48,646 nucleotides of DNA, from positions 1 through 48,646 of the forward strand of contig VFZX01000012.1 of the NCBI GenBank assembly GCA_016871015.1. Reading direction: 5' to 3'. Shown here piece by piece: positions 26,537-43,942 of the stretch; the stretch's first letter is position 1; each line of letters begins with the position of its first letter. A program made the position numbers and the translations under genes. The notes beneath the pieces are model-generated. The model did not search any database, was not told the origin of the DNA, and worked only from the letters and a program-made list of their open reading frames with translations. This DNA is from Acidobacteriota bacterium. GTDB lineage: Bacteria; Acidobacteriota; Terriglobia; Bryobacterales; Bryobacteraceae.

Positions 26537-26600
26537 GGCTTATCATCATAGCGCCGATGGGCCTGGGCATCGAGGGCCCGAAAGAGTTAGAATTGCGCCC
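26537..26600. promoter_or_regulatory. divergent promoter region, hydrolase operon / propeller-CehA gene
   Basis: A 64-nt spacer between divergent starts. Minus strand: TATGAT at 26545-26550, 8 nt before the hydrolase ATG, with a poor TCGATG at 26568-26573 spaced 17 nt upstream. Plus strand: TAGAAT at 26588-26593, 7 nt before the ATG of the metallohydrolase gene. Neither gene shows a convincing Shine-Dalgarno, which fits leaderless starts. Assigned by eye. Confidence 0.4.
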
Positions 26601-29098: not shown

Positions 29099-29413
29099 TT
29101 AGGCTTGGCCAGCCGAATTACGGGTGAGCCACTCGTCGACGCTGGCCGCCGTGGGGAGGTCGCGGGCGCACTCGGTGAGGTCCGCGATGTGTTCAAGCGG
29201 CAGCGAGCGGATACGGCGCAAGGTGGACTCTGGAAGATCGCCCAAGCGCCTCTTGAGTGCCAGTTCGGCGATCGCCGCCATCCCTTGTCTCCGGCCTTGC
29301 TCAAGCTCCAATTCCTTAAGCGCCAGTTCCAGTCCCTTCTCAAGCCCCTTCTCGTAACCCTGCTCGTGCCAGTAGGTCCAAAACAGCGGCTCCTCGCGAT
29401 TGGATTTTTTCAT
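29099..29413 (-). CDS. stand-alone C-terminal segment of an Rpn-family protein
   Basis: A 104-residue protein that reproduces only the C-terminal part of the Rpn-family protein encoded immediately upstream (29448-30431). Its start (MKKSNREEPLFWTYWHEQGY) aligns with residues from KISNPEQPLFWTYWHEKG of the large protein. Then come a shorter GLEKG repeat, the helical RRLGDLPESTLRRIRSLP module and an almost identical end. Where the large gene has CTG for leucine, this copy has ATG, with GGAG about seven bases upstream, so it could be translated independently. It lacks the nuclease domain entirely. The spacing is 34 nt, same strand. It is either a truncated duplicate or a free regulatory domain; E. 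coli Rpn proteins are known to be inhibited by a small C-terminal product. Confidence 0.6.
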   Translation of the reverse strand: MKKSNREEPLFWTYWHEQGYEKGLEKGLELALKELELEQGRRQGMAAIAELALKRRLGDLPESTLRRIRSLPLEHIADLTECARDLPTAASVDEWLTRNSAGQA

Positions 29414-29790
29414 CTCGTGCTCCAGGCCTCCGCCGTCAACGGCTTGATCAGCTCGCCGACGGGCCTGAATTCCGGGCGAGCCACTGGTCGAGGCTGGCCG
29501 CCGTGGGGAGGTCGCGGGCGCACTCGGTTAGGTCCGCGATCCGTTCCGGCGGCAGCGAGCGGATCAGGCGCATCGTGGACTCTGGGAGATCGCCCAAGCG
29601 CCTCTTGAGTACCAGTTCAGCGATCGCGGCCATCCCTTGTCCCCGGCCTTGCTCAAGCCCCTGCTCAAGCCCCTGCTCACGCCCCTTCTCAAGTCCCTGC
29701 TCTAGTCCCTTCTCAAGTCCCTGCTCTAGTCCCTTCTCGTGCCAGTAGGTCCAAAACAGCGGCTGCTCCGGATTGGATATTTTCAGTTCT
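29108..29790. repeat. direct repeat of the Rpn 3' segment (29108-29413 and 29466-29790)
   Basis: The 3' part of the Rpn-family gene and the following small gene are two direct copies of one roughly 300-bp segment, clearly alike at DNA level (for example, long identical runs around GTGGGGAGGTCGCGGGC and ATCGCCCAAGCGCCTCTTGA in both). The difference in length comes mainly from the 12-bp repeat array, which is longer in the large gene. Confidence 0.75.
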
Positions 29791-30431
29791 TGCACGACCC
29801 ATTGCTCCTCTTCCGGTTTCAACCGGAGGTATGTGTTCACGAAGCCCGCGATCAACTCCGTCCTCGCCTCGTCCATGCCGAGCGACAGTGTGGACCGCAG
29901 ACACTCCAACTTTACCAGCTTGCGCTCCTCCGGCTTCATGCGCATCTTCGACATCAATGCGTACCCGACGGGATTGCCACTGCCCACGTAATCGCGCCAG
30001 TCCAGCAGGTTCAATTGTACGGTCTCGTACTGGAACTTCAGCACGGCGTGGTCTCCAATCTTGACCTCGTACTCGTTCGGCGCGCGCTCACGCGGCGAGT
30101 CGTAGGTGAGCAATCCCACCGGAAACACGGGCACCTGGTGTGTGAACAGGACCCTCGAGAAATAGCTGAACATCCGTTCGGGAAACACGGCCTGCGGAGT
30201 CCCTTGCGCCTCCACCTGGAACACCATGGGGCCGATCCCTTCCAGCCGGGCCTTCACCAGCAGGTCGGCTTCGTGGCGATCGCCTGCGGTGACATCGGTG
30301 AAGATCTCCTGCTGCAGGAACTCGATCGAGTTCCTGTCCATGGCCGCGGCGAGCTTTGGCCAGAACAACATAATGAACTCAATGAAGAAAACACGGAGCA
30401 ATTCCTTGAAAAGCCGGTCGTGATTTGGCAT
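29448..30431 (-). CDS. Rpn-family PD-(D/E)xK nuclease/transposase-like protein
   Basis: A 327-residue protein. The N-terminal 200 residues form a PD-(D/E)xK nuclease-like domain: HDRLFKELLRVFF, then HEAD56LLVKARLEG and VFQVE74AQ76 (the D and ExQ pair of the active site), and FSYFSRVLF. Residues about 238-275 are a repeat of GLEQGLEKG units encoded by a 12-bp minisatellite. The C-terminus (about 275-327) is a DUF4351-like helical module (RRLGDLPESTMRLIRSLP). Rpn proteins are recombination-promoting DNases implicated in phage defence in E. coli; the closest annotation in Acidobacteria is often DUF4351 or transposase. A TAACAT hexamer at 30437-30442 lies 5 nt before the ATG. A truncated C-terminal copy is encoded directly downstream. 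Confidence 0.82.
   Translation of the reverse strand: MPNHDRLFKELLRVFFIEFIMLFWPKLAAAMDRNSIEFLQQEIFTDVTAGDRHEADLLVKARLEGIGPMVFQVEAQGTPQAVFPERMFSYFSRVLFTHQVPVFPVGLLTYDSPRERAPNEYEVKIGDHAVLKFQYETVQLNLLDWRDYVGSGNPVGYALMSKMRMKPEERKLVKLECLRSTLSLGMDEARTELIAGFVNTYLRLKPEEEQWVVQELKISNPEQPLFWTYWHEKGLEQGLEKGLEQGLEKGREQGLEQGLEQGRGQGMAAIAELVLKRRLGDLPESTMRLIRSLPPERIADLTECARDLPTAASLDQWLARNSGPSAS
29648..29739 (-). repeat. 12-bp coding minisatellite (LEQG/LEKG units)
   Basis: About seven and a half tandem 12-bp units, variants of GGACTAGAGCAG / GGACTTGAGAAG read on the minus strand, encode GLEQ/GLEK within the Rpn-family gene. A length change by whole units would keep the frame and lengthen or shorten the helical linker. 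The downstream truncated copy has fewer units. Confidence 0.8.
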
Positions 30432-30456
30432 GTTTTATGTTAGCTCCGACCGCAAG

Positions 30457-30476
30457 GAACGCCGGGAAGGGCGTTC
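30457..30476 (-). terminator. candidate stem-loop at the end of the antiporter gene
   Basis: A perfect 7-bp stem (GAACGCC / GGCGTTC) with a 6-nt loop begins inside the antiporter stop codon on the minus strand. There is no T tract after it, so it is not a classical intrinsic terminator. It could still define an mRNA 3' end between the efflux operon and the Rpn gene. Confidence 0.35.
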
Positions 30477-31731
30477 AACGCCGCCGGAAGACCGCCTGCA
30501 GCAACGGCGGCGTCATCACGGTCGTCAGCAGGACCATCACGACCATCGCCGAGATCAGCGACGAGTCAAACACCGGCTTCCCCTGAACCGAGAGCGCCGC
30601 GCCAATTCCCGTGAAGATCAGTCCTACCTCGCCGCGCGGGATCATGCCAACGCCCACCGCCACGCGCGAGACTCCCTTGTCGATCACGCCGAATCCGCAC
30701 ACCTGCTTTCCAATAACGGCGGCGACGGTCAAGGCCGCCGCCAGTCCGATCACGGATGTCGAGCCGAAGACGTGCAGGTCCACCTTCAGTCCCATCAGCA
30801 CGAAGAACATCGGCACGAAGACCGCCGTCAGCGGCTTGATCAACTCAGCGACCGGCCGGATTCCGCGCGCCTGGTAGGCCGCGTAGTCGTCGTCGGCGAT
30901 TACGAGACCCGCCGCGAACGCGCCCACGATGGGAGCGAGCCCCAGCCACCCGGCTAGCGCCGCGAGCGCAAAGCAGTAGCAGACCGCCAGCACCAGCGTG
31001 ACTCCTTGGACGCGGAACGACTGGGCGATCTTCAACGCGTTGATGTGGATCCGCCGGCCCACCCAGATCGCGCCCACAAGGAACGCGGCCGCCTTCAGAA
31101 CAATCAACGCGACAGGCTTCCACTCGAGCACCGCCCCGCCTCCCCCGCCGATCGAGGTCACCATCCCCGCCACCACCGCGAGGATGATCAGTCCCAACAC
31201 GTCGTCCACCACGGCGGCGCCAAGAATGATCCGAGCCTCGCGTGTTTCCATCTGATTCAGATCCTGCAGCACGCGAGCGGTGATGCCGACGCTCGTTGCC
31301 GTCAGCGTGGCGGCGGAGAACAAATGCACGTACCAGGGCGACTCGGGCAGGAACACCGCGGTGACGCCGTAACCCAGGAGCATCGGCGCGATCACACCCA
31401 AGTGCGCGACAATCGTCGCCGACCAGCCCACAGCCAGCAGCTCGTGCATGTCCGTTTCCAAGCCCACATCGAACAGCAGCAGGATCACGCCGATCTCCGC
31501 CATGAGCTGCAGGCTGGCGCTCGACTTGAGCGAGTCCAGTTGAGGGAGCCCCACCAGCGCCAGGTTGCCCAGCACGATGCCCGCGGCCAGCTCACCCAGC
31601 ACCGCCGGCTGCCGGAGCCGCACCGCCAGCTCGCCTCCGAGCTTGGCGCCCAGCAGCACAACCACCATCCCGAACAGGACCAGCACCACCTGGTCGCCGT
31701 GGCTTGCCAACCCGTGCGCCGCTTCCACCAT
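30475..31731 (-). CDS. CPA2-family cation:proton antiporter
   Basis: A 418-residue integral membrane protein with about 12-13 predicted hydrophobic helices. The family motifs are present: QPAVLGELAAGIVLGN (about 41-56), FDVGLETD, ATLTATSVGITARVLQDLNQ, and the ion-binding aspartate pair in GAAVVD176D177VLGLI. The end of the transport domain reads GMIPRGEVGLIF. There is no C-terminal TrkA-N domain, as in shorter KefB/NapA-like members. It exchanges Na+ or K+ for H+ across the inner membrane. Its ATG lies only 3 nt after the stop of the RND pump gene, so it belongs to the efflux operon. The antiporter may balance the proton flux of the pumps or help pH/salt tolerance; that link is inferred from position. 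Confidence 0.9.
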   Translation of the reverse strand: MVEAAHGLASHGDQVVLVLFGMVVVLLGAKLGGELAVRLRQPAVLGELAAGIVLGNLALVGLPQLDSLKSSASLQLMAEIGVILLLFDVGLETDMHELLAVGWSATIVAHLGVIAPMLLGYGVTAVFLPESPWYVHLFSAATLTATSVGITARVLQDLNQMETREARIILGAAVVDDVLGLIILAVVAGMVTSIGGGGGAVLEWKPVALIVLKAAAFLVGAIWVGRRIHINALKIAQSFRVQGVTLVLAVCYCFALAALAGWLGLAPIVGAFAAGLVIADDDYAAYQARGIRPVAELIKPLTAVFVPMFFVLMGLKVDLHVFGSTSVIGLAAALTVAAVIGKQVCGFGVIDKGVSRVAVGVGMIPRGEVGLIFTGIGAALSVQGKPVFDSSLISAMVVMVLLTTVMTPPLLQAVFRRR

Positions 31732-31734
31732 CTG

Positions 31735-34700
31735 CTAAGCTGCCACCGGACGGGGCGCCGGCTCCGCTTTTTTCTTTCCCCGCGCCAGGCTTTGCAACTT
31801 CGCCATGTAGGTGTAGACGACTGGAGTCAGGTACAGGGTGACCGCCTGCGAGAAGATCAACCCGCCAACCACCACCAAGCCGAGGGATTGGCGCGCGTCG
31901 CCGCCCGCTCCGTATCCCACCGCGATCGGTACAGCCCCCAGCAGCGCCGCCATCGTGGTCATCATGATCGGGCGGAACCGGATCAGGCAGCCCTGGTAGA
32001 TCGCCTCGCGGGCGTCCAACTGCTGGGTCCGCTCGGCTTCGAGCGCGAAGTCGATCTGCATGATCGCGTTCTTCATCACGATGCCGATCAGCATGATCAG
32101 ACCGACGAAGCCGTAGATATTCAGGTCGAGCTTGAACAGCATCAGCGTCAGCAGCGCGCCGAATCCGGCCGAGGGCAGGCCGGACAAAATCGTCAGAGGA
32201 TGGATGTAGCTTTCGTACAAAATGCCCAGCACGATGTAGACCACAAGGATCGCGACAATCAGCAGCAGCGTCAGGTTGGACTGCGAACCCTGGAACGCTT
32301 CGAGCGCCCCCTGGTGCGCCGTGCTGACACCTGAGGGTAGCACCTCGGCGCCCACTTCGTCGAGCATCCGGGCGGCTTCGCCCAGCGGGACTCCGCGCTC
32401 GGTATTGAACGATACCGTCACCGCGGGCAACTGTCCGTAGTGGTTGATCGTCTGCGGACCCACATCCTCGCTCACCGCCGCCACTGAGTCGAGCGGAATC
32501 AGGCGCTCGCCCGAGCCCTTGAAGTAGATCCGCGACAGTGCGTTGGGGTCGCGCTGATCTTCTGGGAGCAGCTCGAGCAGTACCTTGTACTCGTTCACCG
32601 AACTGTAGATGGTCGACACCCAGCGCGGACCAAAGGCATCATAGAGCGCGTTCTCGATCTGCTCGACGTTCACTTGCAGCGCGGCGGCCTTGTCGCGGTC
32701 AATCTTGACGTTCACCTGCGGCGTGCGGATCTGCAGGTTGTTGGTGACGTCGATCAGGCCGGGCCGCTGCGCGAGCTCCTTGGTGAAGCGGTCGGCGGCG
32801 GTGAACAACTCTTCGCGGTCGGGCGACTGCAGCGAGAACTGGTACGGACTCTTGGTCACCTGGCCGCCGATCTGCACGGTGGGCGGATTCTGCAGGTAGG
32901 TACGCAGTCCGGTGACGCTTTCGAGGTCCTGGCGCAGCTCCGACATCACCTGGTCGACGCCCATCTTGCGCGAATGGCGCGGCTTCAAATGGACAATCAC
33001 CTGTCCGTAGTTGGATCCGCCCAAGGTGGACGCGGTCGCGCCGCCGACGCTCGACACCAATCCCTCGACATTCTCGTTCGCCGAGATGATCTTGGCGACT
33101 TCCCTCTGGTGTTCCACCATCTTGAAGTACGACGTGCCTTCGGTGGCCTCAGTAAAGGCGAGGATCTGATCGGTGTCCTGCTCAGGGATAAAGCCCTTGG
33201 GGATCGTGGTGAAGATCCAGTAGGTTCCGCCGAGCAGCCCCAGGAATGCGGCTACGGTGACGAAACGGTACTTCAACACCCATACGAGCGTCACGTCATA
33301 GATCCGCAGCAGCCACTGGAAGAAGCGCTCGGTGGTGCGGTAGAACCAGCCGTGCTTCTTGCCGTGCGACGAGGTGAGGAATCGCGAGCACAGCATCGGT
33401 GTCAGCGTCACGGAAACGACTCCCGAGATCAGCACCGCGACGCAGATGGTAACCGCGAACTCGCGGAACAGCCGTCCGAGCACGCCACCCATGAACAGCA
33501 CCGGGATGAACACGGCGGCGAGCGACAGCGTCATCGACACGATGGTGAATCCGATTTCGCTCGATCCTTCATAGGCCGCCTGCATCGGGCGCTTGCCCAT
33601 CTCGATATGGCGGACAATGTTTTCAAGCATCACGATGGCGTCGTCGACCACGAAGCCCACCGACAGGATCAGGGCCATCATCGACAGGTTGTCGAGGCTG
33701 TAGTCGAGCAGGTACATCACGGCGAATGTGCCGATGATGGAAAAGGGCAGCGCGAGGCTCGGAATAATGGTGGCCGACATGTTGCGCAGGAACAGGAAGA
33801 TCACCATGATCACCAGACCCAGTGTCAGAAGCATGGTGAACTTGACGTCCTCGAACGACTCCGTGATGGTCTCCGAACGGTCGTAGAGGACGTCCATTTT
33901 GACGGACGGCGGAAGCTCGCTCTGGAACACCGGCAGCAGCTTCTTGATGTCCTGCGTGACGGCCATCGTGTTCGTTCCCGGCTGGCGCTGGATGGCCAGG
34001 ACCACGGCGCGCTGCTCATCGCCGTCCTTGTAGTACCAGGAGGCCGCCTTGTCATCCTCGATCCCGTCATTCACCTCGCCCAGCTCTTCGAGGCGGATGG
34101 GGGATCCGTTGCGGTAGGCGACGATCACCGGCCGGAACTGCTGCGCATTCATCAACTGTCCAGTGGCCTGGAGCGTGAAGGCGCGCTGGGGTCCGATGAT
34201 ACTGCCGATAGGAAGGTTGACGTTCCAATTGCGGAGCGCGCTCTCGACTTCGTTGATCCCGACCTGGCGCGCCGCCAGCGCCCGCGGATTCACCTGCACA
34301 TGGACCGCGTACCGCTGCGCGCCGAGCACCTGGACCTGCGCGACGCCGTTCACCATCGAGATCCGTTGGGCGACCCGCGTCTCCGCGTATTCGTTCAACG
34401 TCCACAGCGGCATCGTGCCCGAGGTGAGCACCAGATAGAGGATCGGTTGGTCCGCCGGATTCACCTTGGTGAACGTCGGCGGCGTCGGCATCCCTTGAGG
34501 AAGCAGCCGCGCCGACTGCGTGATCGCCGCCTGGACATCAACCGCCGCGCCATCCAGGTTGCGGCTCAAGTCGAACTCGAGCGTGATCCGCGTGGCGCCG
34601 AGCGAGTTAACCGAAGTCATCGACGCCAGGCCCGCGATCATCGTGAAGTTGTTCTCGAGCGGAGTCGCCACGGCCGAGGCCATTGTTTCCGGACTCGCGC

Positions 34701-34857
34701 CGGGAAGGCTCGCGGTGACGAGCAGCGTCGGCAGGTCGACGTTCGGCAGGTCGCTGACCGGAAGCGCGCGGTAGGCTACTGATCCGAACAGCGCGATGGC
34801 CGCCATCAACAAGCTGGTGGCGATGGGGCGGAGGATAAAGGGTTCGGAAACGTTCAT
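31735..34857 (-). CDS. RND efflux pump permease (HAE1/MdtC-like), second subunit
   Basis: A 1040-residue inner-membrane RND transporter of the hydrophobe/amphiphile efflux family. It shows the N-terminal helix (ILRPIATSLLMAAIALFG), the periplasmic porter halves, and the transmembrane proton-relay motif GFVVD405D406AIVMLENIVRHIE in TM4. The second half repeats this plan and ends with Lys/Pro/Ala-rich residues. The full RND length suggests an active pump. It is 3 nt downstream of the paralogous permease, an arrangement like MdtB-MdtC, in which two different permeases form a mixed trimer. It takes the periplasmic adaptor from the same operon. No outer-membrane channel gene is present nearby. Confidence 0.93.
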   Translation of the reverse strand: MNVSEPFILRPIATSLLMAAIALFGSVAYRALPVSDLPNVDLPTLLVTASLPGASPETMASAVATPLENNFTMIAGLASMTSVNSLGATRITLEFDLSRNLDGAAVDVQAAITQSARLLPQGMPTPPTFTKVNPADQPILYLVLTSGTMPLWTLNEYAETRVAQRISMVNGVAQVQVLGAQRYAVHVQVNPRALAARQVGINEVESALRNWNVNLPIGSIIGPQRAFTLQATGQLMNAQQFRPVIVAYRNGSPIRLEELGEVNDGIEDDKAASWYYKDGDEQRAVVLAIQRQPGTNTMAVTQDIKKLLPVFQSELPPSVKMDVLYDRSETITESFEDVKFTMLLTLGLVIMVIFLFLRNMSATIIPSLALPFSIIGTFAVMYLLDYSLDNLSMMALILSVGFVVDDAIVMLENIVRHIEMGKRPMQAAYEGSSEIGFTIVSMTLSLAAVFIPVLFMGGVLGRLFREFAVTICVAVLISGVVSVTLTPMLCSRFLTSSHGKKHGWFYRTTERFFQWLLRIYDVTLVWVLKYRFVTVAAFLGLLGGTYWIFTTIPKGFIPEQDTDQILAFTEATEGTSYFKMVEHQREVAKIISANENVEGLVSSVGGATASTLGGSNYGQVIVHLKPRHSRKMGVDQVMSELRQDLESVTGLRTYLQNPPTVQIGGQVTKSPYQFSLQSPDREELFTAADRFTKELAQRPGLIDVTNNLQIRTPQVNVKIDRDKAAALQVNVEQIENALYDAFGPRWVSTIYSSVNEYKVLLELLPEDQRDPNALSRIYFKGSGERLIPLDSVAAVSEDVGPQTINHYGQLPAVTVSFNTERGVPLGEAARMLDEVGAEVLPSGVSTAHQGALEAFQGSQSNLTLLLIVAILVVYIVLGILYESYIHPLTILSGLPSAGFGALLTLMLFKLDLNIYGFVGLIMLIGIVMKNAIMQIDFALEAERTQQLDAREAIYQGCLIRFRPIMMTTMAALLGAVPIAVGYGAGGDARQSLGLVVVGGLIFSQAVTLYLTPVVYTYMAKLQSLARGKKKAEPAPRPVAA

Positions 34858-34860
34858 GGA

Positions 34861-37800
34861 CTAGTCGCCTGCCGCAGCCGGAGATGGCGTCGGCACGGGC
34901 TTAGGTTGGGAGAGCTTATTGAAGCGGTGGACAATCGCGTCGAGGTAGGTGTAGACGACTGGCGTCAGGTACAGCGTGACGAACTGCGAGATGATTAACC
35001 CGCCCGCCACCGCCAGGCCGAGCGGCCGCCGCGCCTCACCGCCAGCGCCGTATCCGATGGCGATCGGCAGCACGCCCAGCAGTGCCGCGAGCGTCGTCAT
35101 CAGAATAGGACGGAACCGGATAATGCAGCCCTCATAGATCGCATCCCGCGGGCTCATGTTGTCCTTGCGCTCCGCTTCAAGCGCGAAGTCGATCTGCATG
35201 ATCGCGTTCTTCTTCACGATTCCGATGAGCATGAACAGTCCGACGAAAGCGTAGATGTTAAGCTCCTGGCCAAAGATCAGCAGCGTAGCCAAAGCCCCCA
35301 GAGCGGCCGAGGGCAGCCCGGACAGGATCGTGATCGGGTGGACGTAGCTCTCATAGAGGATCCCCAACGAGATATAGACCACGGCCACCGCGATGATCAG
35401 CAGAAGGGTCATGTTCTGCAGCGAATCCTGGAACGCTTTGGCGGTTCCCTGGAAGCTGGTCTTGATCGTTCCCGGCAGGCGCGACGCGGCGTCTTCGATT
35501 CCCTCCACCACGTCGCCCAGCGCCGTACCCGGCCGGAGATTATAGGAGATCGTCACCGACGGCAACTGGCCTGAGTGGTTGATCATCTGCGGACCTGCGT
35601 CCATATAGGTGCTGGCGAAGGCGTCCATCGGCACCAGCACGCCCTCGCGGTTCTTGAAGTAGAGCTTGGAGAGCAGGTCCGGGTGCTGCTGGTATTCAGG
35701 CAGCAGCTCGAGCAAGACCTTGTACTGCGCGTTCGGGGCGTAGATCGTCGACGACCAGCGGGGACCAAAGGCGTCGTACATGGCATTGGAAACATCGCGC
35801 ATGTTCAGGTGCAGCGCCGCGACCTTGTCGCGGTCTACATGGACATTGAGCCGCGGGTTGCGCATCTGGAGGTCGGTGGTGACGTCGGTGATCCCGGGGA
35901 TCTGCGCCATCGCCATTTGCAGCTTCGCCGCCTCGCGGTACAACTCGTCGGAATCGGTGCCCTGGAGCGTGTACTCGTACTGGCTCTTGGACATCCGTCC
36001 GCCGATGCGAATCGACTGCGGCGCCGTGAGGAATACACGCGCGCCGACGAACGCGTTGAACTGCGGCCGCAGCTTTTCCATCACCTGGATGACCGACAGT
36101 TCCCGTTCCTTGCGCGGCTTGAGGGTGATGAACGAGCGTGCGGAGTTGGCGCTCGCGTTGAACGATCCGCCCGCGCTGGTCATCATGTTCTCGACGTTCG
36201 GGTCCGACGAGATGATCTGGGCGATCCGCTGCTGGTAGTCCGCCATCTGGTAATAGGAGATCCCCTGGATGGCCTCGGTGTTGGCGTACATCGAGTCGGA
36301 ATCGGTGTCGGGGATAAAGCCCTTTGGCACCAGGTTGAAGAAGTAGTACGTAAGGTAGATGGTCCCGAGGAACACGGCCAGCATCACGGGGCGGGCGCGC
36401 AGCACCAGCCGCAGAGACCAGCCGTACCAGCGCAGCATGATGTTGAAGAACCACTCCGTCATCCGGAACAGGATCCCGGGCCGGTGAGTCTCAACCTGCC
36501 GCGCCTTGAGCAGCTTGCTGCACAGCATCGGCGTCAGCGAAACCGACACGAAGCCGGACAGCACGATTGCCACCACGATCGTCACCGCGAACTCACGGAA
36601 CAGCCGCCCCATCAGGCCACCCATGAACAGGATCGGAATGAAGACGGCGGCCAGCGACACCGTCATCGACACGATCGTGAAGCTGATTTCCTTCGATCCC
36701 CGGAAGGCCGCCTCCTTGACGCTTTCCCCGCGCTCGATGTGGCGGACGATATTCTCCAGCATCACGATCGCGTCGTCCACCACGAATCCCACCGACAACA
36801 CCAGCGCCATCATCGACAGGTTGTTCAGGCTGAATCCGAACAACAGCATGAACGCGAGAGTTCCGAACAGCGACAGCGGAAGCGCAGTGGCCGGAATGAA
36901 GGTTGCACGGCCGTTGCGCAGGAACAGGAAGATCACCAGGATGACCAGGATCATCGCCGACAGCATCGTGAAGCGGATATCGTGGAACGCCTCGCGGATG
37001 TTCCGCGACCGGTCGCCACGGATGGTGAGCTCGGCGGAGGGCGGGAGCTCGGCGATGATATCGGGGATCAGCTTCCGGATCGAATCGTTCACCTGGATCA
37101 CGTTGCTCGACGGCTGCCGCATCACCGCGAGATTGAGCCCCTTAATTCCTTTGCCATTCTGGAATAGCCAGGATCCGGTCTTATCGTCTTCCACCGAGTC
37201 GATCACGCGGGCGACATTTTCGAGCAGCACCGGCGCGCCGTTGCGGTAGGCGATTGTCACCCGCTTGAACTGGTCGGCGCGGCGCAACTGTCCGTCGGCG
37301 CGGATATTGAAGGCCTGCTTCTCGCCCCACAGGGTACCAGTGGGCAGGTTCACGTTCCACTGCCGGAGCGCGCGGCCGACCTCGTCGATGCCGATCCTGT
37401 GGGCGGCCAGGCGCTCCGGATCCACCTGGACGCGGACAGCGAACTTCTGCGCGCCGAACGTGTTCACCTGGGCAACGCCCGGAACCACCGATAGCCGCTG
37501 GGCGATCTGCGTCTCGGCAATGTCCTGAAGGTCATAGAGGGGCAACGAGGTCGATGTCAGGCCGAGGAACATGATGGGCGAATCCGATGGGTTCGACCTG
37601 CGGAAAGACGGCGGGTTGGGCATCCCCGGGGGGAGCAGCGGGATCGCCGCGGCGATGGCGGTCTGCACGTCGACCGAGGCGCCGTCGAGATCGCGGTCGA
37701 GGCTGAAGGTCAGCGTGATGTTGGTACTGCCCGTCGAACTTGTCGAGGTAATCGTGTCGATGCCCGCGATGGTGGTGAACTGCCGCTCAAGAGGTGTCGC

Positions 37801-37989
37801 CACGGCCGAGGCCATCGTGTCCGGATTCGCACCAGGAAGATTCGCCGACACCGACAGCGTCGGGAAGTCGACATCCGGCAGGTCGGCCACCGGAAGCATG
37901 CTATATGAGATCGCGCCGAACACGGCAAAGGCCAGCATCAGCAGGCTGGTCGCCACCGGGCGGCGAATGAACACGCCGGAAAAATTCAT
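34861..37989 (-). CDS. RND efflux pump permease (HAE1/MdtB-like), first subunit
   Basis: A 1042-residue RND permease paralogous to the next gene. The N-terminus reads FIRRPVATSLLMLAFAVFG; the TM4 relay is GFVVD405D406AIVMLENIVRHIE; the second repeat has ILYESYVHPITILSGLPSA and the late RPILMTTLAALLG. It ends in a Pro-rich tail (PKPVPTPSPAAAGD). A good GGAGG box precedes the ATG, 12 nt after the adaptor stop. It is proton-driven export of drugs, metabolites or lipids in a tripartite complex with the adaptor and an outer-membrane channel encoded elsewhere. A pair of different permeases suggests a heterotrimeric pump, as in MdtABC; this is inferred from gene order. Confidence 0.93.
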   Translation of the reverse strand: MNFSGVFIRRPVATSLLMLAFAVFGAISYSMLPVADLPDVDFPTLSVSANLPGANPDTMASAVATPLERQFTTIAGIDTITSTSSTGSTNITLTFSLDRDLDGASVDVQTAIAAAIPLLPPGMPNPPSFRRSNPSDSPIMFLGLTSTSLPLYDLQDIAETQIAQRLSVVPGVAQVNTFGAQKFAVRVQVDPERLAAHRIGIDEVGRALRQWNVNLPTGTLWGEKQAFNIRADGQLRRADQFKRVTIAYRNGAPVLLENVARVIDSVEDDKTGSWLFQNGKGIKGLNLAVMRQPSSNVIQVNDSIRKLIPDIIAELPPSAELTIRGDRSRNIREAFHDIRFTMLSAMILVILVIFLFLRNGRATFIPATALPLSLFGTLAFMLLFGFSLNNLSMMALVLSVGFVVDDAIVMLENIVRHIERGESVKEAAFRGSKEISFTIVSMTVSLAAVFIPILFMGGLMGRLFREFAVTIVVAIVLSGFVSVSLTPMLCSKLLKARQVETHRPGILFRMTEWFFNIMLRWYGWSLRLVLRARPVMLAVFLGTIYLTYYFFNLVPKGFIPDTDSDSMYANTEAIQGISYYQMADYQQRIAQIISSDPNVENMMTSAGGSFNASANSARSFITLKPRKERELSVIQVMEKLRPQFNAFVGARVFLTAPQSIRIGGRMSKSQYEYTLQGTDSDELYREAAKLQMAMAQIPGITDVTTDLQMRNPRLNVHVDRDKVAALHLNMRDVSNAMYDAFGPRWSSTIYAPNAQYKVLLELLPEYQQHPDLLSKLYFKNREGVLVPMDAFASTYMDAGPQMINHSGQLPSVTISYNLRPGTALGDVVEGIEDAASRLPGTIKTSFQGTAKAFQDSLQNMTLLLIIAVAVVYISLGILYESYVHPITILSGLPSAALGALATLLIFGQELNIYAFVGLFMLIGIVKKNAIMQIDFALEAERKDNMSPRDAIYEGCIIRFRPILMTTLAALLGVLPIAIGYGAGGEARRPLGLAVAGGLIISQFVTLYLTPVVYTYLDAIVHRFNKLSQPKPVPTPSPAAAGD

Positions 37990-38001
37990 GCCGGACCTCC
38001 G

Positions 38002-39309
38002 CTAGTCTTCCGTCTTCTCCTCCGCCGCCTCTGCTGCTTTCTTCTTCCCCTTACCGCCTTTTCCGCCGCCCTTGCCACCACCGCCGCCTTTTCCAGGTCC
38101 GGCTGCGTCACGGGTACGGATCCGCATGCCGGGCGCCAGGCGAAGCTGGCCCTCCGTCACCACGGTATCGCCCGCCTCGACACCTTCGCTGACCACGATG
38201 TCCTGCTCGACGCGGCCCGCCGTCACTACTTTCGCCATCTCCACCGTGTTGTCGGGCTTCACTCGGTAGACGAACGATCCATCCTGTCCCGTCTGGACCG
38301 CCTGGTTGGGCACCATCAACGCGTTCTGGCGCATGCCGAGCCGCAGCGTTACACGCACGAACTGGCCGGGCCACAGCGTGCGCCTCGGATTTTCGAACTG
38401 GCCCTTGAGCTTGATGGTCCCGGTGTTGGCGTCGACAGCGGAATCGATAAAAGTAAGCGTGCCGGTTTCCGGCCGCCCGGGATCGTCGGGCGGGGCGGCG
38501 GTGACCGGCAGCCGTCCACGTGCCATCGCGTCCTTTACGGGGGTCAGTTGCGCCTCCGGAACCGAGAATGCGACATAGACCGGCTGGACCTGGCTGATCG
38601 CGATCAACTCGGTTACGTTGGCCGTCGTCAGGTTCCCTTCGTGCGCGGTGAGTGTCCCGGTCCGCCCGTCGGCGGGCGCGGTCACCGTGGTGTAGCCCAA
38701 CTGGATGCGCGCCGTCTTCAAAGCCGCTTCGCTGGCCTGGATCGACGCCTCCACGCTCGCGATCGCGGCCTTATCCGCGGCCACAGCCTGCGCGACCACG
38801 TCGGCGCTCGCCTGCTGCTGCTCGGCCTGGTCCTTCGAGATCACGCCTTCCTTATGGAGGCTTGCGAACCGTCCCGCCTGCGAAGTGAGGAACCGGAGCT
38901 GCGCCTCGTCGCGTGCCAGATTCGCGCGCGCCTGCTGCAACTGCGCCTTCTCCCGCGCCAGATTCGCCTCGGCCTGGTTCACCGCGGACTGAAACGGCGC
39001 CGGATCGATCGAGAACAACACCGCCCCTTTACGTACGAAATCGCCCTCGCGGAAGTGGACTTTTTCGATCGGTCCGGTGATCCGGGACTTGACCAGCACG
39101 GTCGCGAAAGCCTCAACGTTTCCAATTACTTGGATGTCCATTGGGACATTCCGGGTGGTGACCTTCGCGGTGGCCACGGGCGCGTCTCCACCGCCCTTTT
39201 TTCCGCCTCCCCTCTTGCCCTCAGCGGCGGGCTGGGGAGCACAGGATTGCAGGACTGCGAAGGTGAGGAGGAAAAACGAGGCTCTGCTCAGGGACACGAA
39301 CACCACCAA
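38002..39309 (-). CDS. RND efflux periplasmic adaptor lipoprotein
   Basis: A 435-residue membrane-fusion protein. The signal peptide ends in a lipobox (LQSC, about residues 20-23), so it should be tethered by lipid. Then come a Gly/Lys-rich linker, the lipoyl-like domain (GPIEKVHFREGDFVRKGAVLF), a long alpha-helical hairpin (about 110-200), the second lipoyl half (TVTAPADGRTG), the beta-barrel and the membrane-proximal domain (VPNQAVQTGQDGSFVY). The C-terminus is an unusual Gly/Lys repeat tail followed by Ala/Glu. The predicted start is TTG with no good Shine-Dalgarno; GTG codons directly after it are alternatives. It opens the efflux block, with two permeases and an antiporter following on the same strand. 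Confidence 0.9.
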   Translation of the reverse strand: MVVFVSLSRASFFLLTFAVLQSCAPQPAAEGKRGGGKKGGGDAPVATAKVTTRNVPMDIQVIGNVEAFATVLVKSRITGPIEKVHFREGDFVRKGAVLFSIDPAPFQSAVNQAEANLAREKAQLQQARANLARDEAQLRFLTSQAGRFASLHKEGVISKDQAEQQQASADVVAQAVAADKAAIASVEASIQASEAALKTARIQLGYTTVTAPADGRTGTLTAHEGNLTTANVTELIAISQVQPVYVAFSVPEAQLTPVKDAMARGRLPVTAAPPDDPGRPETGTLTFIDSAVDANTGTIKLKGQFENPRRTLWPGQFVRVTLRLGMRQNALMVPNQAVQTGQDGSFVYRVKPDNTVEMAKVVTAGRVEQDIVVSEGVEAGDTVVTEGQLRLAPGMRIRTRDAAGPGKGGGGGKGGGKGGKGKKKAAEAAEEKTED

Positions 39310-39367
39310 AGGCTAGGCGTGAAGTACAGCGCCTATGTTACTAGACCTCGGGCGTGCGATGCCGGCA

Positions 39368-41572
39368 TCAGCGTCCCGCTTCCGCCAGCAAGCGCTTGTA
39401 CGCCTCCCGCGCGTGATTGTAGGCCTGCTCGAAGTCGCCCCGTTCATTCAGCCGGATCCGGCCCAACTTCTGCTGGTAGCATTTCTCCACCGCCGTCAGC
39501 AGCCATTCCGCGCTCGGACGCGACCGCACTCCCTTCCCGTCTACCGTCACCCACACCGGATTCGTGTGCGACGACGGCAATACCCGCAGTGCCACCCAGC
39601 TCGACCGGTCGATCTTCACATCGAACGTCATGTCGCGCGACACCCCATCGGCGTCGATCTCCCGCCGGATCACCGGCTCGCCGTTCACCAGCACCTCGAG
39701 CGGCACCTTGCGTGTGTTCCCGATGCGCGACCGCTCCAGGTCCCAGTACGGCTTCTGGTCCGCCCGCCGCGACCGGATGGACTCGTCCGGGGTCTCATCC
39801 AGCAGCGCCGCCACTTTCGCGCTCAGCTTCACGGTGCCCGGACCGCCAAGCCTCACGTCCTTGTCCGTGCCCATCTCGATCCCGTTCACGCGGAAGTCGA
39901 TCAAGTGGCTCTTGCCGTCGGACACGTAGTTGCGCCCCTCGCGGAGACCGCGCGCCCAGTCCTCGTAGTCGAGCGCCTTCTGGCGGACGTAGCTGCGGCC
40001 CAGTCCCACGCGCTCGCCGTAGATGCACGGGAAATCGGTCTCGCCGCTGATACGCGCGCGGTAGCCAACATTCAGCGTGTGGTACCAGACGTTCAACTCC
40101 CACGGATACGGCGTGTCGACGGTCGAAATGAAGTCGATCAGGTTGTGCGTCACGCTCACCACGTACTCGTTCGCGCCGATCCCATCAAACGGCGGCATCT
40201 CGGCCGAAGGGAGCTTCGTGTCCTTGATCTGCAGGCCCCAGCCGGAGTGCGCGTAACCTGTGATCGCGTTCTGTGCCTTGGCCCAGCGCAGGATCGGGAT
40301 CCCCCAGCTCGGCCAGTCCTCGATGCGGTGCGTGCCGGGATAATCCTGCTCGCGCAAGCCTAGCAGGCAGATGTGCCCGGTGTGCGACGACGGGTGCCCC
40401 GAGATCTCGACGTCGTACCGGATCCGGTGCTCCTTGGTCGACACCGCGTTCTCCCGCCCCTCGAAGAACGTCTTTTGGAAATACCAACCCGGACCCCAGG
40501 TGAGCACCGAGCCGATCTTGAGATCCTCGCCGAGCACGTGCCGCATCATGTCCTGCGGATAGACGCCCTCGGTGGGACGCTCATAGTGCGCGCACCCGGC
40601 GGCGTGGATGTGGTGGTCGCCCGAATACCAGCCCAGCTTCGCCGGATCGATCCACCGCTCCAGGCGGAAGGTGAGCGTCTGCGGGTTAAAATCCGGCACG
40701 TTGACCTTCTGGACGCGTTTGCGGTATTCAGGACCACGCGAGTACTCGACGGTGTACTTGCCCGGAGGCAGGGCCACCGACTCTCCATCGGCGCGGTAAA
40801 CCTGCGGGTGGAAGAAGAAGTCCGGTGCGAGGCGCTTAGCCTGCGAAGGATAGACACGGTTCCGGTCGTCGCGGATCAGGAACGAGCCGGTGGTGGGCTT
40901 GTCGTCAAAGTCCAGCACCCGTAGCGTGATCTTGGCCGCGGGACGCGCCGTGAACAGGATGTCGACCTCGTTGCGGAAGCCAAGGTCCTGCGATCCCTGT
41001 CCCACATCGAACAACAGCTTGCCCTCGCGCTTGCCCGAGTCCTTTGAATAGATCGACACGACCCGGTATTCGAGCTCCAGTCCGGAAAGGTGGGCGCGCA
41101 AGGGCTGCTTGTTGAACATCTGGATGTCGAGCCATCGCATCTGGACCGCGCGGGCCGGAGAGTTCGCCAACTGGCCCATGTTTGGCGAGTCCACCGCGAG
41201 CACCGCGGTCACGCCCGCCTCGTTGTGCACCTTGACGAGAAACGTCCGCCAGCCTTGTTCGACCAGCTCCGCTTTGGCCGGTCCCTGCTGGACTTTCACG
41301 CGGCTCTCCGGATTGATGTTCACGCCCGTGAGGCAGTACTTGTCGAGGATCGCCTGGATCCGCTCGACTTCCTTCGGTCCGCCGGGCGATTCGGTGAGCT
41401 TCTTCAGTTCTGTTGAATCAGGCGCGGGCATCGGCTCTCCCAGCAGGTCGAGCGATTGCAGCACGCGCGTGACCTGTGCGGACAGTGGCTGGAATTCGAC
41501 TTTGGTCACCAGCGGGAGTTCTTCAGCCGCCGCGATCAGTGCGGAACAGGCAAGCAGGATGAGGGGGCGCAT
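39368..41572 (-). CDS. secreted CehA/McbA-family metallohydrolase
   Basis: A 734-residue exported protein (signal peptide to about residue 16, CSALIAAAEE). The N-terminal 300 residues are beta-rich and include a carboxypeptidase-like beta-sandwich (ITLRVLDFDDKPTTGSFLI). The PHP-like metal domain opens with GDHH321IH323AAGC and continues with WGPGWYFQ, a histidine-rich HPSSHTGHICLLG, TGYAHSGWG and a late GETDFPCI. These are the metal-binding blocks of CehA/McbA hydrolases. Its C-terminal tail resembles that of the propeller fusion at 26601. It precedes the efflux genes by 58 nt on the same strand and may be in their operon. The 22-nt gap to the divergent gene at 41595 holds a GATACA hexamer 8 nt before its ATG. 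The substrate is unknown. Confidence 0.85.
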   Translation of the reverse strand: MRPLILLACSALIAAAEELPLVTKVEFQPLSAQVTRVLQSLDLLGEPMPAPDSTELKKLTESPGGPKEVERIQAILDKYCLTGVNINPESRVKVQQGPAKAELVEQGWRTFLVKVHNEAGVTAVLAVDSPNMGQLANSPARAVQMRWLDIQMFNKQPLRAHLSGLELEYRVVSIYSKDSGKREGKLLFDVGQGSQDLGFRNEVDILFTARPAAKITLRVLDFDDKPTTGSFLIRDDRNRVYPSQAKRLAPDFFFHPQVYRADGESVALPPGKYTVEYSRGPEYRKRVQKVNVPDFNPQTLTFRLERWIDPAKLGWYSGDHHIHAAGCAHYERPTEGVYPQDMMRHVLGEDLKIGSVLTWGPGWYFQKTFFEGRENAVSTKEHRIRYDVEISGHPSSHTGHICLLGLREQDYPGTHRIEDWPSWGIPILRWAKAQNAITGYAHSGWGLQIKDTKLPSAEMPPFDGIGANEYVVSVTHNLIDFISTVDTPYPWELNVWYHTLNVGYRARISGETDFPCIYGERVGLGRSYVRQKALDYEDWARGLREGRNYVSDGKSHLIDFRVNGIEMGTDKDVRLGGPGTVKLSAKVAALLDETPDESIRSRRADQKPYWDLERSRIGNTRKVPLEVLVNGEPVIRREIDADGVSRDMTFDVKIDRSSWVALRVLPSSHTNPVWVTVDGKGVRSRPSAEWLLTAVEKCYQQKLGRIRLNERGDFEQAYNHAREAYKRLLAEAGR

Positions 41573-41594
41573 GGATGTGTTGTATCACGGATAG
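41573..41594. promoter_or_regulatory. very short back-to-back promoter with shared -10 bases
   Basis: Only 22 nt separate the two divergent start codons. Plus strand: TATCAC at 41583-41588, 6 nt before the ATG. Minus strand: GATACA at 41581-41586, 8 nt before the ATG. The hexamers overlap on the same base pairs, so both genes would start leaderless from one opening site. Neither has a Shine-Dalgarno. Confidence 0.4.
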
Positions 41595-42446
41595 ATGAGC
41601 TTTGCAAAACTGGCCTTGATCGCGGCGCAGCTCCGGATCGAACAAACCAGTCCCGTTGGGTTCCGCGTGGACAACGGGATTTTCGCCGCCGACCACTCGA
41701 TCCGCAATGGAATCGACTCCGGAACCCTGCACAAACTGACCTTCAAAGCAGCCGGAGTGTCCTTCGAGCGGACTCCCACCAACTGGATGCACTGGGCTCC
41801 CAGCATGCAGCGGACCGGAGCACGCGCCTACACCAGCATCTCGACTTGGAATCCGGTGCAAGAGTACGAGCACCAGAAGTCGGACCAGCGTCTGATCGCC
41901 ACACGCGAGGGCCGGCATGCGCTCTATCCGGAGGTCCGGCTCTGGACCCGGTACGAGTACGAGGCGGGTGTCCCGTATTTTGTGTTCCACGCGATCCTGA
42001 CCGTCGAGAAGCCGATCGACATGTACTGGCTGCGTGGGCAGGAGATGACCATGGATCGCTTCTTCACTCACGCGGCGTGGCCGGGCGCCGATGGCAGGCC
42101 TGTGGTGATGGACTTCGAATCCCGCAAGCCGGTGCTCGAGAAGCGCCCGGTCCCGGTGGACGCTCCGTGGATCGCATTCCTGAATCCGGAGAAGGGCTAT
42201 GGCTACGGCGCGGTCGTGCTGGACTACAAGGCCACCAAGACCGCGAATCCGATGATGAGCATCAACGACGGTGCGGAGAATGGCAAGTATTGGGACCGTA
42301 GGATCATCAACCAGGTCAGCACGATGCTTGTCCCGGGCGACCGGTTTGAGGAACGGACGGCGTACGTGGTGTTCCGGTGTTCCGCTTCGAAGCTGCTCGA
42401 CGAATTTCTCGATTGGGAGAAGCGGATCCGCGGCCGGAAAGACTAG
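41595..42446 (+). CDS. uncharacterised protein
   Basis: A 283-residue protein that I do not recognise. The codon pattern and composition fit a real gene and the frame is open throughout. The N-terminus (MSFAKLALIAAQLRIEQ) is only weakly hydrophobic, not a convincing signal peptide. The rest is beta-rich with many aromatic residues: GVSFERTPTNWMHWAPSM, EVRLWTRYEYEAGVPYF, MYWLRGQEMTMDRFFTHAAW and MMSINDGAENGKYWDRRI. The aromatic, strand-rich make-up would fit a carbohydrate-binding or mutarotase-like beta-sandwich, but no motif proves it. It is divergent from a CehA/McbA hydrolase, with starts 22 nt apart, so the two are probably co-regulated. Confidence 0.7.
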   Translation: MSFAKLALIAAQLRIEQTSPVGFRVDNGIFAADHSIRNGIDSGTLHKLTFKAAGVSFERTPTNWMHWAPSMQRTGARAYTSISTWNPVQEYEHQKSDQRLIATREGRHALYPEVRLWTRYEYEAGVPYFVFHAILTVEKPIDMYWLRGQEMTMDRFFTHAAWPGADGRPVVMDFESRKPVLEKRPVPVDAPWIAFLNPEKGYGYGAVVLDYKATKTANPMMSINDGAENGKYWDRRIINQVSTMLVPGDRFEERTAYVVFRCSASKLLDEFLDWEKRIRGRKD

Positions 42447-42458
42447 AATGGACTGCAA

Positions 42459-42488
42459 GGCAGTGGCGTGAAGTTTCAGCGCACTGCC
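42459..42488. repeat. 30-nt imperfect inverted repeat after the uncharacterised gene
   Basis: GGCAGTG and CACTGCC arms (7 bp perfect) enclose a further CG and TGA/TCA pairing with one unpaired G on each side. The hairpin lies 13 nt after the stop at 42446. It lacks a T tract. It could be an mRNA 3'-end stem or a REP-like palindrome; no second copy was noticed. Confidence 0.5.
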
Positions 42489-42568
42489 GGAGCAACAGGG
42501 GCACACCGGCGCCGTCCGGGATGCTGACAGCGGCCCCGTTGTGGACGCTTCCATGAAGGAGGTGTCCA

Positions 42569-43419
42569 TTGGAATATGAAGTTGTGGTGAAGGATCTGTT
42601 CGTGCGGGACCGGCCGGTGTTGCTCACGCGGATCGCGCGCGGCAGGAAGCTCGGGCCTCCGTTGAACGTTGAGCTTGCCTTGGTCGAAGGCCGTGTTGCG
42701 GATCTGTTCTTCCGCACGGGCAAACGGAGACTGCTTCACATTGAGGTCAGACGTGGAACTCAAGGAACATGGCGGTGCGTTCAGGCGTGTACGCGCTGCT
42801 CGGCGCTGAGAAGTTCGGCGCCGATTACGTGGATACGGTGGTGCTGTATCTGGGCCGGGGCAGGCTGCGGATGCTGAACTGGCTCGACATCGGGACGGTG
42901 AGAGTCCGCTTCCGTTTGATCAACGTCAGTGAGATCAGCGCGGCCCGCCTGTTGCGGTCGAAGAATCCAGCCGACTGGGTGATCGCGATGCTGGGCAAGA
43001 ACGGGACAAAGGAGCTGAGGACGATCCTGCATCGAATCCTCGCGCTGCCCGCGGAGCAACGCGGCAGGCTGGTGGCGCAGTTGATGGCGCTGTCCGGGTT
43101 GCGCGGAGTGTCGGAAAGATTGAAAATGGAGTTCAAGGCGGCTGGCATGGAAATCGATATTGAAAGCAACGTCCTACTGCGGGACATCCGCGACGCGGGT
43201 TACGCGAAGGGCTTGGCCAAGGGTTTGGCTGAGGGTGAGGCGAAGGGTGAGGCGAAGGGACAAGCCCGGCTGCTCCGCTCACTGCTTGAGTCCAAGTTCG
43301 GGAAAATGCCCGCCTGGGCGACCAAGCGGCTTGCTCAGGCAAGCGCGGACGACATCGCGAGGTGGGGTGCGAAGGTGCTCACAGCGCGGACGATCGAGAG
43401 CGCGTTAAACGGCAAATAG
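42569..43419 (+). pseudogene. Rpn/DUF4351-family nuclease-like gene with a frameshift
   Basis: This gene starts with TTG, six bases after a perfect AAGGAGG. The first 60 codons give an N-terminal nuclease-like segment with D45 (VADLFF) and HIE59V. The expected next residue, Q of the ExQ site, appears only after shifting frame: the second frame continues QTWNSRNMAVRSGVYALLG to a stop at 43419. One missing base at about 42746-42750 explains the break. The second half has a helical region and a DUF4351 C-terminus (LLESKFGKMPAWATKRLAQA). If the base is a sequencing error the gene is intact, about 275 residues. The last 91 codons exist in two further tandem copies downstream. Confidence 0.75.
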
Positions 43420-43425
43420 CTTGGT

Positions 43426-43675
43426 ATGGAAATCGATATTGAAAGCAACGTCCTACTGCGGGACATCCGCGACGCGGGTTACGCGAAGGGTTTGGCTGAG
43501 GGTGCGACGAAGGGACAAACCCCGGCTGCTCCGCTCTCTGCTGGAGTCCAAGTTCGGGAAATTGCCCGCCTGGGCGACCAAGCGGCTTGCTCAGGCAAGC
43601 GCGGACGACATCGCGAGGTGGGGTGTGAAGGTCCTCACCGCTCGGACGATCGAGAGCGCGTTAAACGGCAAATAG
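43426..43675 (+). pseudogene. second tandem copy of the DUF4351 C-terminal module, frameshifted
   Basis: Starts MEIDIESNVLLRDIRDAGYA like the other copies, with six bases between the previous stop and its ATG. After GATKGQT the reading frame breaks: the DNA has ACAAACCCCGG where copies 1 and 3 have ACAAGCCCGG, one base more. The remainder (LLRSLLESKFGKLPAWATKR to ALNGK) is intact in the other frame. As written it would make a 90-residue hybrid protein. Confidence 0.7.
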
Positions 43676-43681
43676 CTTGGT

Positions 43682-43942
43682 ATGGAAATCGATATTGAAA
43701 GCAACGTCCTCCTGCGGGACATCCGCGACGCGGGTTACGCGAAGGGTTTTGCTGAGGGTGAGGCGAAGGGTGAGGCGAAGGGACAAGCCCGGCTGCTCCG
43801 CTCTCAGCTGGAGTCCAAGTTCGGGAAATTGCCCGCCTGGGCGAACAAGCGGCTTGCTCAGGCAAGCGCGGACGACATCGCGAGGTGGGGTGCGAAGATC
43901 CTCACCGCCCGGTCGATCGACAGCGCGCTAAACGGCAAATAG
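43682..43942 (+). CDS. stand-alone DUF4351-like C-terminal module (third tandem copy)
   Basis: An intact 86-residue protein: a short conserved start (MEIDIESNVLLRDIRDAGYA), a GEAKGEAKG linker and the DUF4351-like helical module (LLRSQLESKFGKLPAWANKR...RWGAKILTARSIDSALNGK). It is the C-terminal third of the frameshifted Rpn-like gene upstream, without any nuclease domain. Its ATG is six bases after the end of copy 2, with no clear Shine-Dalgarno, so translation would depend on re-initiation. Whether it is expressed is not known. It could be duplication debris or a free dimerisation/inhibitory domain, as in the small C-terminal products of E. coli rpn genes. Confidence 0.5.
   Translation: MEIDIESNVLLRDIRDAGYAKGFAEGEAKGEAKGQARLLRSQLESKFGKLPAWANKRLAQASADDIARWGAKILTARSIDSALNGK

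Follow-up and report, generated by a model that had tools for sequence, protein, structure and literature searches.

Detached copies of the C-terminal module downstream of Rpn-like nuclease genes in Bryobacterales

Main finding and relation to known systems

We analysed a stretch of 48,646 nucleotides from an Acidobacteriota bacterium of the order Bryobacterales (assembly GCA_016871015.1, contig VFZX01000012.1), referred to here as the window. It contains two loci at which an Rpn-like nuclease gene is followed directly, on the same strand, by stand-alone copies of its own repeat linker and DUF4351-like helical module, and the arrangement recurs in the order. Our preferred reading, to which we give an even chance, is that these are Rpn-type gene-within-gene toxin–antitoxin loci whose 3' RpnS-type module has been tandemly duplicated, and that the copy differs in specificity from its neighbour. 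Detached RpnS modules are ordinary in kind and already known from E. coli. There, according to passages of PMC10327210, RpnS is a small C-terminal intragenic antitoxin made from an internal start, the detached RpnS copies (ypaA, also called rpnES, and rpnCS) have each arisen separately from their own parent, and tagged RpnES was detected.

The RpnL/RpnS systems described in passages of the same paper share with the Bryobacterales genes a presumed PD-(D/E)XK-like N-terminus, a linker of 4-amino-acid (aa) repeats, an internal ribosome-binding site and start, and a C-terminal helical module. An internal ribosome-binding site and start before the module are found in the clade; locus 1 of the window has only a GTG with GAGGAG, and locus 2 an ATG with a weaker Shine–Dalgarno sequence. 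The small protein has variable 4-aa repeats within its first helix, and the lone module sits directly downstream of its own parent and is closest to it, as in the ypaA type. The E. coli pairs rpnE–ypaA and rpnC–rpnCS likewise carry the C-terminal module duplicated directly downstream of their own rpn gene on the same strand; in the strains read the linker of the copy is, as in Bryobacterales, unequal in length to that of the parent, and ypaA begins at the internal start together with its ribosome-binding site. The differences are that E. coli rpnE belongs to another nuclease subfamily (Pfam Transposase_31), and that YpaA synthesis has been detected, whereas that of the Bryobacterales copies is a prediction. 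Unlike RpnL, the locus 1 nuclease scores under the Rpn family cut-off and the locus 2 nuclease has a broken frame.

The two loci of the window

The features of locus 1, all on the minus strand, are as follows.
29448..30431, minus: parent gene, 327 aa, an Rpn-like nuclease with a repeat linker and, C-terminally, a DUF4351 module
29793..29795, minus: candidate internal GTG start of the parent (putative intragenic small protein), with GAGGAG at 29805-29810
29099..29413, minus: detached copy, 104 aa, intact open reading frame (ORF)
29430..29478, minus: parent 3' end and spacer, antiporter-like, aligning with 30822-30869 in 41/49 columns

The last third of the parent consists of the repeat linker (EKGLEQGLEKGLEQG...) and the DUF4351 module, and the similarity of the copy to the parent is confined to this third. 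The copy starts with an ATG at 29413, with GGAG upstream, 34 nucleotides (nt) past the parent stop. It is 78% identical to the parent in the module, its DNA identity is 85%, its linker is 7 aa shorter, and the ratio of nonsynonymous to synonymous substitution rates (dN/dS) between the two is 0.33. The parent has CTG at the site of the copy ATG, and its candidate GTG lies three codons earlier; the Shine–Dalgarno duplex energies are -8.3 at the internal GTG and -9.3 at the copy ATG. Concerning the presumed catalytic residues of the parent, D56 is invariant and E74 and Q76 are nearly invariant in a 12-sequence alignment.

The gene upstream encodes a Na/H antiporter (identified by Pfam), and an internal part of it (30822-30869) aligns with positions 29430-29478 in 41 of 49 columns. 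This spacer scores 37 when compared with the antiporter and no more than 25 with up to 300 pieces taken at random from the window. It is probably the scar of a larger tandem duplication that was followed by a deletion. In the simplest reading the 3' part of the antiporter gene and the rpn gene would have been duplicated in tandem, after which the second rpn gene would have lost its nuclease half in a deletion ending beside the internal start, leaving an intact small gene with its own start. When locus 1 is compared with the paralogue C313, most informative sites group by locus, two near the 3' end by position and one crosswise; the copies at locus 1 and C313 are each the other's best match outside the own locus. 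A single ancestral duplication common to locus 1 and C313 is not favoured by the grouping of most informative sites; the duplications may have been independent, or there may have been one with later homogenisation. In two genus relatives, matches to the flanking genes of the window loci sit on contigs other than those bearing rpn-like genes.

Locus 2 lies on the plus strand.
42569..42877, plus: N-terminal frame of the parent, with the beginning of the nuclease up to and including HIE; the frameshift lies near 42748
42769..43419, plus: second frame of the parent, with the remaining nuclease domain, linker and C-terminal module
43147..43149, plus: candidate internal ATG start of the parent (MEIDIES...), Shine–Dalgarno energy -6.9
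43426..43675, plus: first detached copy, in which one additional base near 43520 shifts the frame
43682..43942, plus: second detached copy, 86 aa, intact, Shine–Dalgarno energy -1.7

The C-terminal module is present here three times head to tail with a period of 256 bp (unit TAG-CTTGGT-ATG), so that each further module opens with an ATG six bases past the previous TAG. Relative to C9, a full-length paralogue from the same genome, the parent lacks one base near 42748, right behind the HIE of its presumed ExQ motif, which puts its N-terminal part and the remainder out of frame with each other. At the DNA level the first copy agrees with the parent module in 246/262 positions and the second in 252/274 (92-94%). 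The second copy, whose ATG lies 6 nt past the stop position of the preceding module, lacks a good Shine–Dalgarno sequence; its linker is 4 aa shorter than that of the parent and its dN/dS against the parent module is 0.30. The single-base changes near 42748 and 43520 may be assembly errors. Locus 2 looks like mostly debris, a locus in decay in which one duplicate still reads through. At C9 of the own genome (L178, 1899-3682) two full-length genes of the locus 2 type stand in tandem with unequal linker lengths.

The first-pass annotation had reported stand-alone linker and DUF4351-like helical modules directly downstream and on the same strand at both loci, and this architecture holds; chance similarity of the window copies was ruled out by their DNA identity. 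It had also described at each locus an Rpn-type gene with one or two stand-alone segments behind it. The gene is a single ORF at locus 1 but not at locus 2, and two of the three segments are intact ORFs, the first copy of locus 2 being frameshifted. As a side observation, the genes adjoining the rpn loci (26439-29093 and 39368-41572) encode similar GWY(T/S)G(E/D)(N/H)H(F/I)HA motifs.

Recurrence in the order and constraint on the copies

DUF4351 was surveyed by profile search in 257 genomes of the order and in 399 genomes drawn from the class, and is present in 65 and 29 of them, respectively; two of the 29 fall outside the order. Based on this survey, 139 of 140 regions (the best-scoring places of a longer list, those of the own genome and one extra) were used for inspection together with the two window loci; because the inspected places are the best-scoring ones of a longer list, the copy frequency is not an unbiased estimate. 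The 172 profile matches formed 139 locus-strand sets, 25 of which had at least two matches. Four of these 25 were dropped: L072, whose matches are separated by 3 kb, L142 and L178, which are arrays of full-length genes, and L162, in which fragments overlap. The first-pass annotation had proposed a search of relatives for C-terminal-only ORFs and a dN/dS estimate for them, and both were carried out. The search gave 25 small downstream copies at 21 loci (21 of the 139 locus-strand sets) in 12 genomes. They match the C-terminal module only, and for 22 of them the best match within the inspected set is a module of their own locus. By manual reading 17 of the 25 are intact, and the eight broken or partial ones (L069, L077, L095, L097 twice, L173, L179 and the first copy of locus 2) point to a turnover of copies.

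Pooled over 16 intact copies, dN/dS relative to the parent is 0.27 (bootstrap 0.20-0.34), compared to 0.16 (0.14-0.19) for the same module in 31 full-length pairs; by arithmetic, about 0.58 would be expected of a copy that has been unconstrained from its duplication onwards. The pooled value omits the eight broken or partial copies and also L139, at which the contig end cuts the upstream gene to 70 aa and its being a full-length parent is an assumption. In a substitution-only simulation the probability that the 16 measured copies, which were chosen for intactness, would all escape stops if neutral is p = 0.0004.

Other arrangements were also seen among the inspected regions. In the 7.1 kb region L142 three full-length rpn-like genes form an array; two module ends are identical and the third differs by one 4-aa repeat. 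L173 (C431 of the own genome) holds decayed core-only DUF4351 fragments near the contig end, with no visible parent. At L095 a 222-aa ORF downstream of the full-length gene carries two DUF4351 modules, and at L130 (strand-oriented 57-1714) a remnant, the parent and two copies stand in a row, the second copy looking like a mosaic of parent and remnant. Rpn-like loci of the same family (L230 and L233) occur in records labelled Nevskia soli, outside the phylum, which may reflect horizontal transfer or misbinning.

The internal start ahead of the module

A motif Met (typically MP[IVL]..DI) lies ahead of the linker in 81 of the 102 full-length genes. The mean Shine–Dalgarno duplex energy at this Met is -9.25 versus -5.96 under synonymous resampling, and the signal goes beyond the synonymous expectation in 75 of the 81 genes (55 of 60 once relatives more than 80% alike are removed). 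Control Met codons in the same genes (n=360) show no shift (-2.50 versus -2.62; 43% stronger). The locus 1 parent and the paralogues C313 and C177 have a GTG behind a purine run instead of the motif Met, with duplex energies of -8.3 for C313 and -12.0 for C177; the locus 1 parent therefore stands outside the synonymous test. The internal start in the clade looks selected, as expected for an intragenic antitoxin of the RpnS type.

In ten of the 17 intact copies the stretch homologous to the parent starts at most about 10 residues from the internal start, and in the other seven (L088 twice, L126, L130 twice, L139, L176) it starts further upstream, so that all 17 include the internal start (L128 only as an adjacent GTG). 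Duplex energies at the copy starts were taken for 15 of the 17 (those of L128 and L139 excepted) and are -8 or lower in eight. Given the strong internal Shine–Dalgarno sequence ahead of the module, the copies would be intragenic-antitoxin (RpnS) ORFs that have been duplicated. The suggestion of the first-pass annotation that the segments are duplicates of the part equivalent to the intragenic antitoxin of E. coli is well supported by the internal start, the constraint and the many loci, and the arrangement itself is published (passages of PMC10327210).

Repeat number in parents and copies

The linker is unequal in length between parent and copy in all 17 intact Bryobacterales copies. The differences are multiples of four residues, except at locus 1 of the window (-7), and are seen even at 94-98% DNA identity (L126 +8, L139 +4, L130 -24, L176 +4); at locus 2 the difference is -4. 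In E. coli the linkers of rpnE and ypaA are unequal in 13/13 strains, with seven length combinations (e.g. 20/24, 40/28, 52/36), and those of rpnC and rpnCS in 9/9; these 22 strains were picked for variety from spread listings of 60. According to passages of PMC10327210, inhibition is lost when either RpnC_S or the RpnC_LS toxin carries one more repeat, and matching restores it. With this repeat rule, the unequal linkers imply that the copies would not fit their neighbours, and the copies are probably not the neighbour's working antitoxin. We found no published statement of a repeat-length mismatch between parent and copy in a literature search in which PMC10327210 was the one listed title about RpnS, and its passages on the repeats and on ypaA are silent about it.

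Domain families and structure models

Against DUF4351 (PF14261, cut-off 25 bits) the locus 1 parent scores 26.4 and the copy 32.0 bits, whereas the locus 2 modules, with 15.2 and 17.7 bits, stay below it; the name Rpn/DUF4351 given in the first-pass annotation is thus borne out by the DUF4351 cut-off at locus 1 but not at locus 2. The locus 1 parent reaches 25.1 bits with TIGR01784, under the curated cut-off of 52.1, and the locus 2 pieces gave no match to TIGR01784 or PDDEXK_2. Four clade relatives were compared as well: TIGR01784 is matched by two of them, at 36-40 bits, and PDDEXK_2 by one, at 17.6 bits (cut-off 27.4). PADLOC returned only weak linker matches to 'putative invertase' (E 0.0015 and 0.0026), and strong NCBIfam FliH matches depend on the repeat linker.

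The model of the locus 1 parent is poor (mean predicted local distance difference test score, pLDDT, of 65), with strands around D56, E74 and Q76. With this low-confidence model Foldseek found no match below 0.001, the top one being an unrelated integrative model at 0.012; EndoMS and EcoO109I are the next weak matches, and Hjc is within the top ten. The 104-aa copy is modelled as a long helix (20-57) and a small bundle (mean pLDDT 79). Foldseek gave no PDB match below E 0.001 for it, the best hit of a sequence search was one at 0.06, and neither search recovered an entry for RpnA_S, whose crystal structure is a three-helix dimer.

Interpretation and alternative explanations

In the reading we prefer, the duplicated unit would run from the internal start to the stop and could be translated alone as an RpnS-type small protein. 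This protein would dimerise via its long repeat helix, and since the repeat helices of copy and neighbour are of unequal length, the copy would neutralise the adjacent nuclease poorly and have another interaction specificity. It may be kept for a time, either against other Rpn alleles or as a donor of the nuclease C-terminus via one deletion; alternatively, it may be lost again.

The first-pass annotation had offered that the copies could restrain the adjacent nuclease. As an external cognate antitoxin the copy would be a further source of the neighbour's inhibitor and raise the dosage of this small protein; its position on the same strand close to the parent stop, the constraint on the copies and the detectable synthesis of YpaA/RpnES in E. 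coli (passages of PMC10327210) agree with this. Its linker, however, is unequal in 17/17 intact copies and in 22/22 E. coli strains, and variants with one added repeat fail to inhibit (passages of PMC10327210), so that the proposal is unsupported as stated and we regard it as unlikely. Modules of other specificity, or transient by-products, fit better. Debris, too, had been suggested in the first-pass annotation: tandem 3' duplications would arise often via the repetitive linker and then decay. The eight broken or partial copies among 25, the scar at locus 1, the decayed fragments at C431, and the broken parent and copy of locus 2, whose two copies have a dN/dS of 1.44 against each other, are in keeping with such decay, and it fits most of locus 2. 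Against it stand the 17 intact copies, their pooled dN/dS of 0.27 and, with due regard to their selection for intactness, their freedom from stops; as a general explanation we think debris possible but rather improbable.

The copy may also be a donor whose C-terminus, after one deletion, replaces that of the nuclease and the intragenic antitoxin at once, a special case of the preferred reading that overlaps with it in probability. The spare parts for C-terminal variation proposed in the first-pass annotation are compatible with this and have some support. All four inspected E. coli strains that have only one rpnE gene carry a ypaA-type C-terminus; two of their cores are identical to ypaA cores of two-gene strains, and for a third the comparison was made at the protein level only. 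Passages of PMC10327210 mention that rpnS has been lost through deletion or fusion. Concerning Bryobacterales, the core is more diverged than the part before the linker in 13 of 17 pairs, and far more so in the second L088 copy (p 4e-7) and in L155 (p 0.002). The reverse is seen in 4/17 pairs, most of the differences are not significant, and in three rpnC pairs the core is better conserved than the linker side, opposite to most Bryobacterales pairs. The direction is also ambiguous, as the single genes may be fusions or the ancestral state. The evidence from exchange favours a donor role without proving it, and as an account of the copies it seems to us improbable. That detached RpnS genes are kept as specificity cassettes and not as the neighbour's antitoxins, one deletion swapping the toxin tail together with its intragenic antitoxin and leaving no unguarded toxic state, we hold to be quite improbable.

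Several points weigh against the preferred reading of duplicated modules with a specificity other than the neighbour's. The mismatch may be due to repeat hypervariability alone: full-length pairs that have diverged to a similar degree are also mostly unequal (equal in 7/31; 8/42 in a wider set), and the excess in the copies (equal in 0/16) is weak, with a one-sided Fisher p of 0.04 from non-independent pairs. Selected avoidance of matching repeat numbers is for these reasons not claimed. By arithmetic, random pairing of the E. coli rpnE lengths would mismatch in most cases too, and the repeat rule comes from one E. coli protein and one added repeat (passages of PMC10327210). Linkers are equal in three copies outside the intact set, namely the frameshifted L179 and two at L097; the latter lack 4-aa repeats as well as a start codon ahead of the module. 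In the rpnC strains an internal stop interrupts one parent and the annotation gives no start for two copies, and in the E. coli K-12 annotation RpnE is inactive and ypaA a pseudogene. The single-gene state of E. coli could be ancestral. The Shine–Dalgarno signal is collective, single genes reaching p<0.1 in only 4% of the 81 (controls 2%), and the motif Met is absent in 21/102 genes, the locus 1 parent included. The constraint is overstated, with dN/dS biased down, because only intact copies were measured, and the two copies of locus 2 give their dN/dS of 1.44 over 54 codons.

Significance

Since detached RpnS modules recur in 12 genomes from a different phylum, and the intact ones are constrained, they are not an oddity of E. 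coli. In gene-within-gene systems the toxin and the antitoxin must co-evolve. The mismatch in repeat number predicts that an external antitoxin should not fit its neighbour; if this prediction is true, the reason why the copies are kept would bear on how specificity can be changed safely in gene-within-gene toxin–antitoxin systems.

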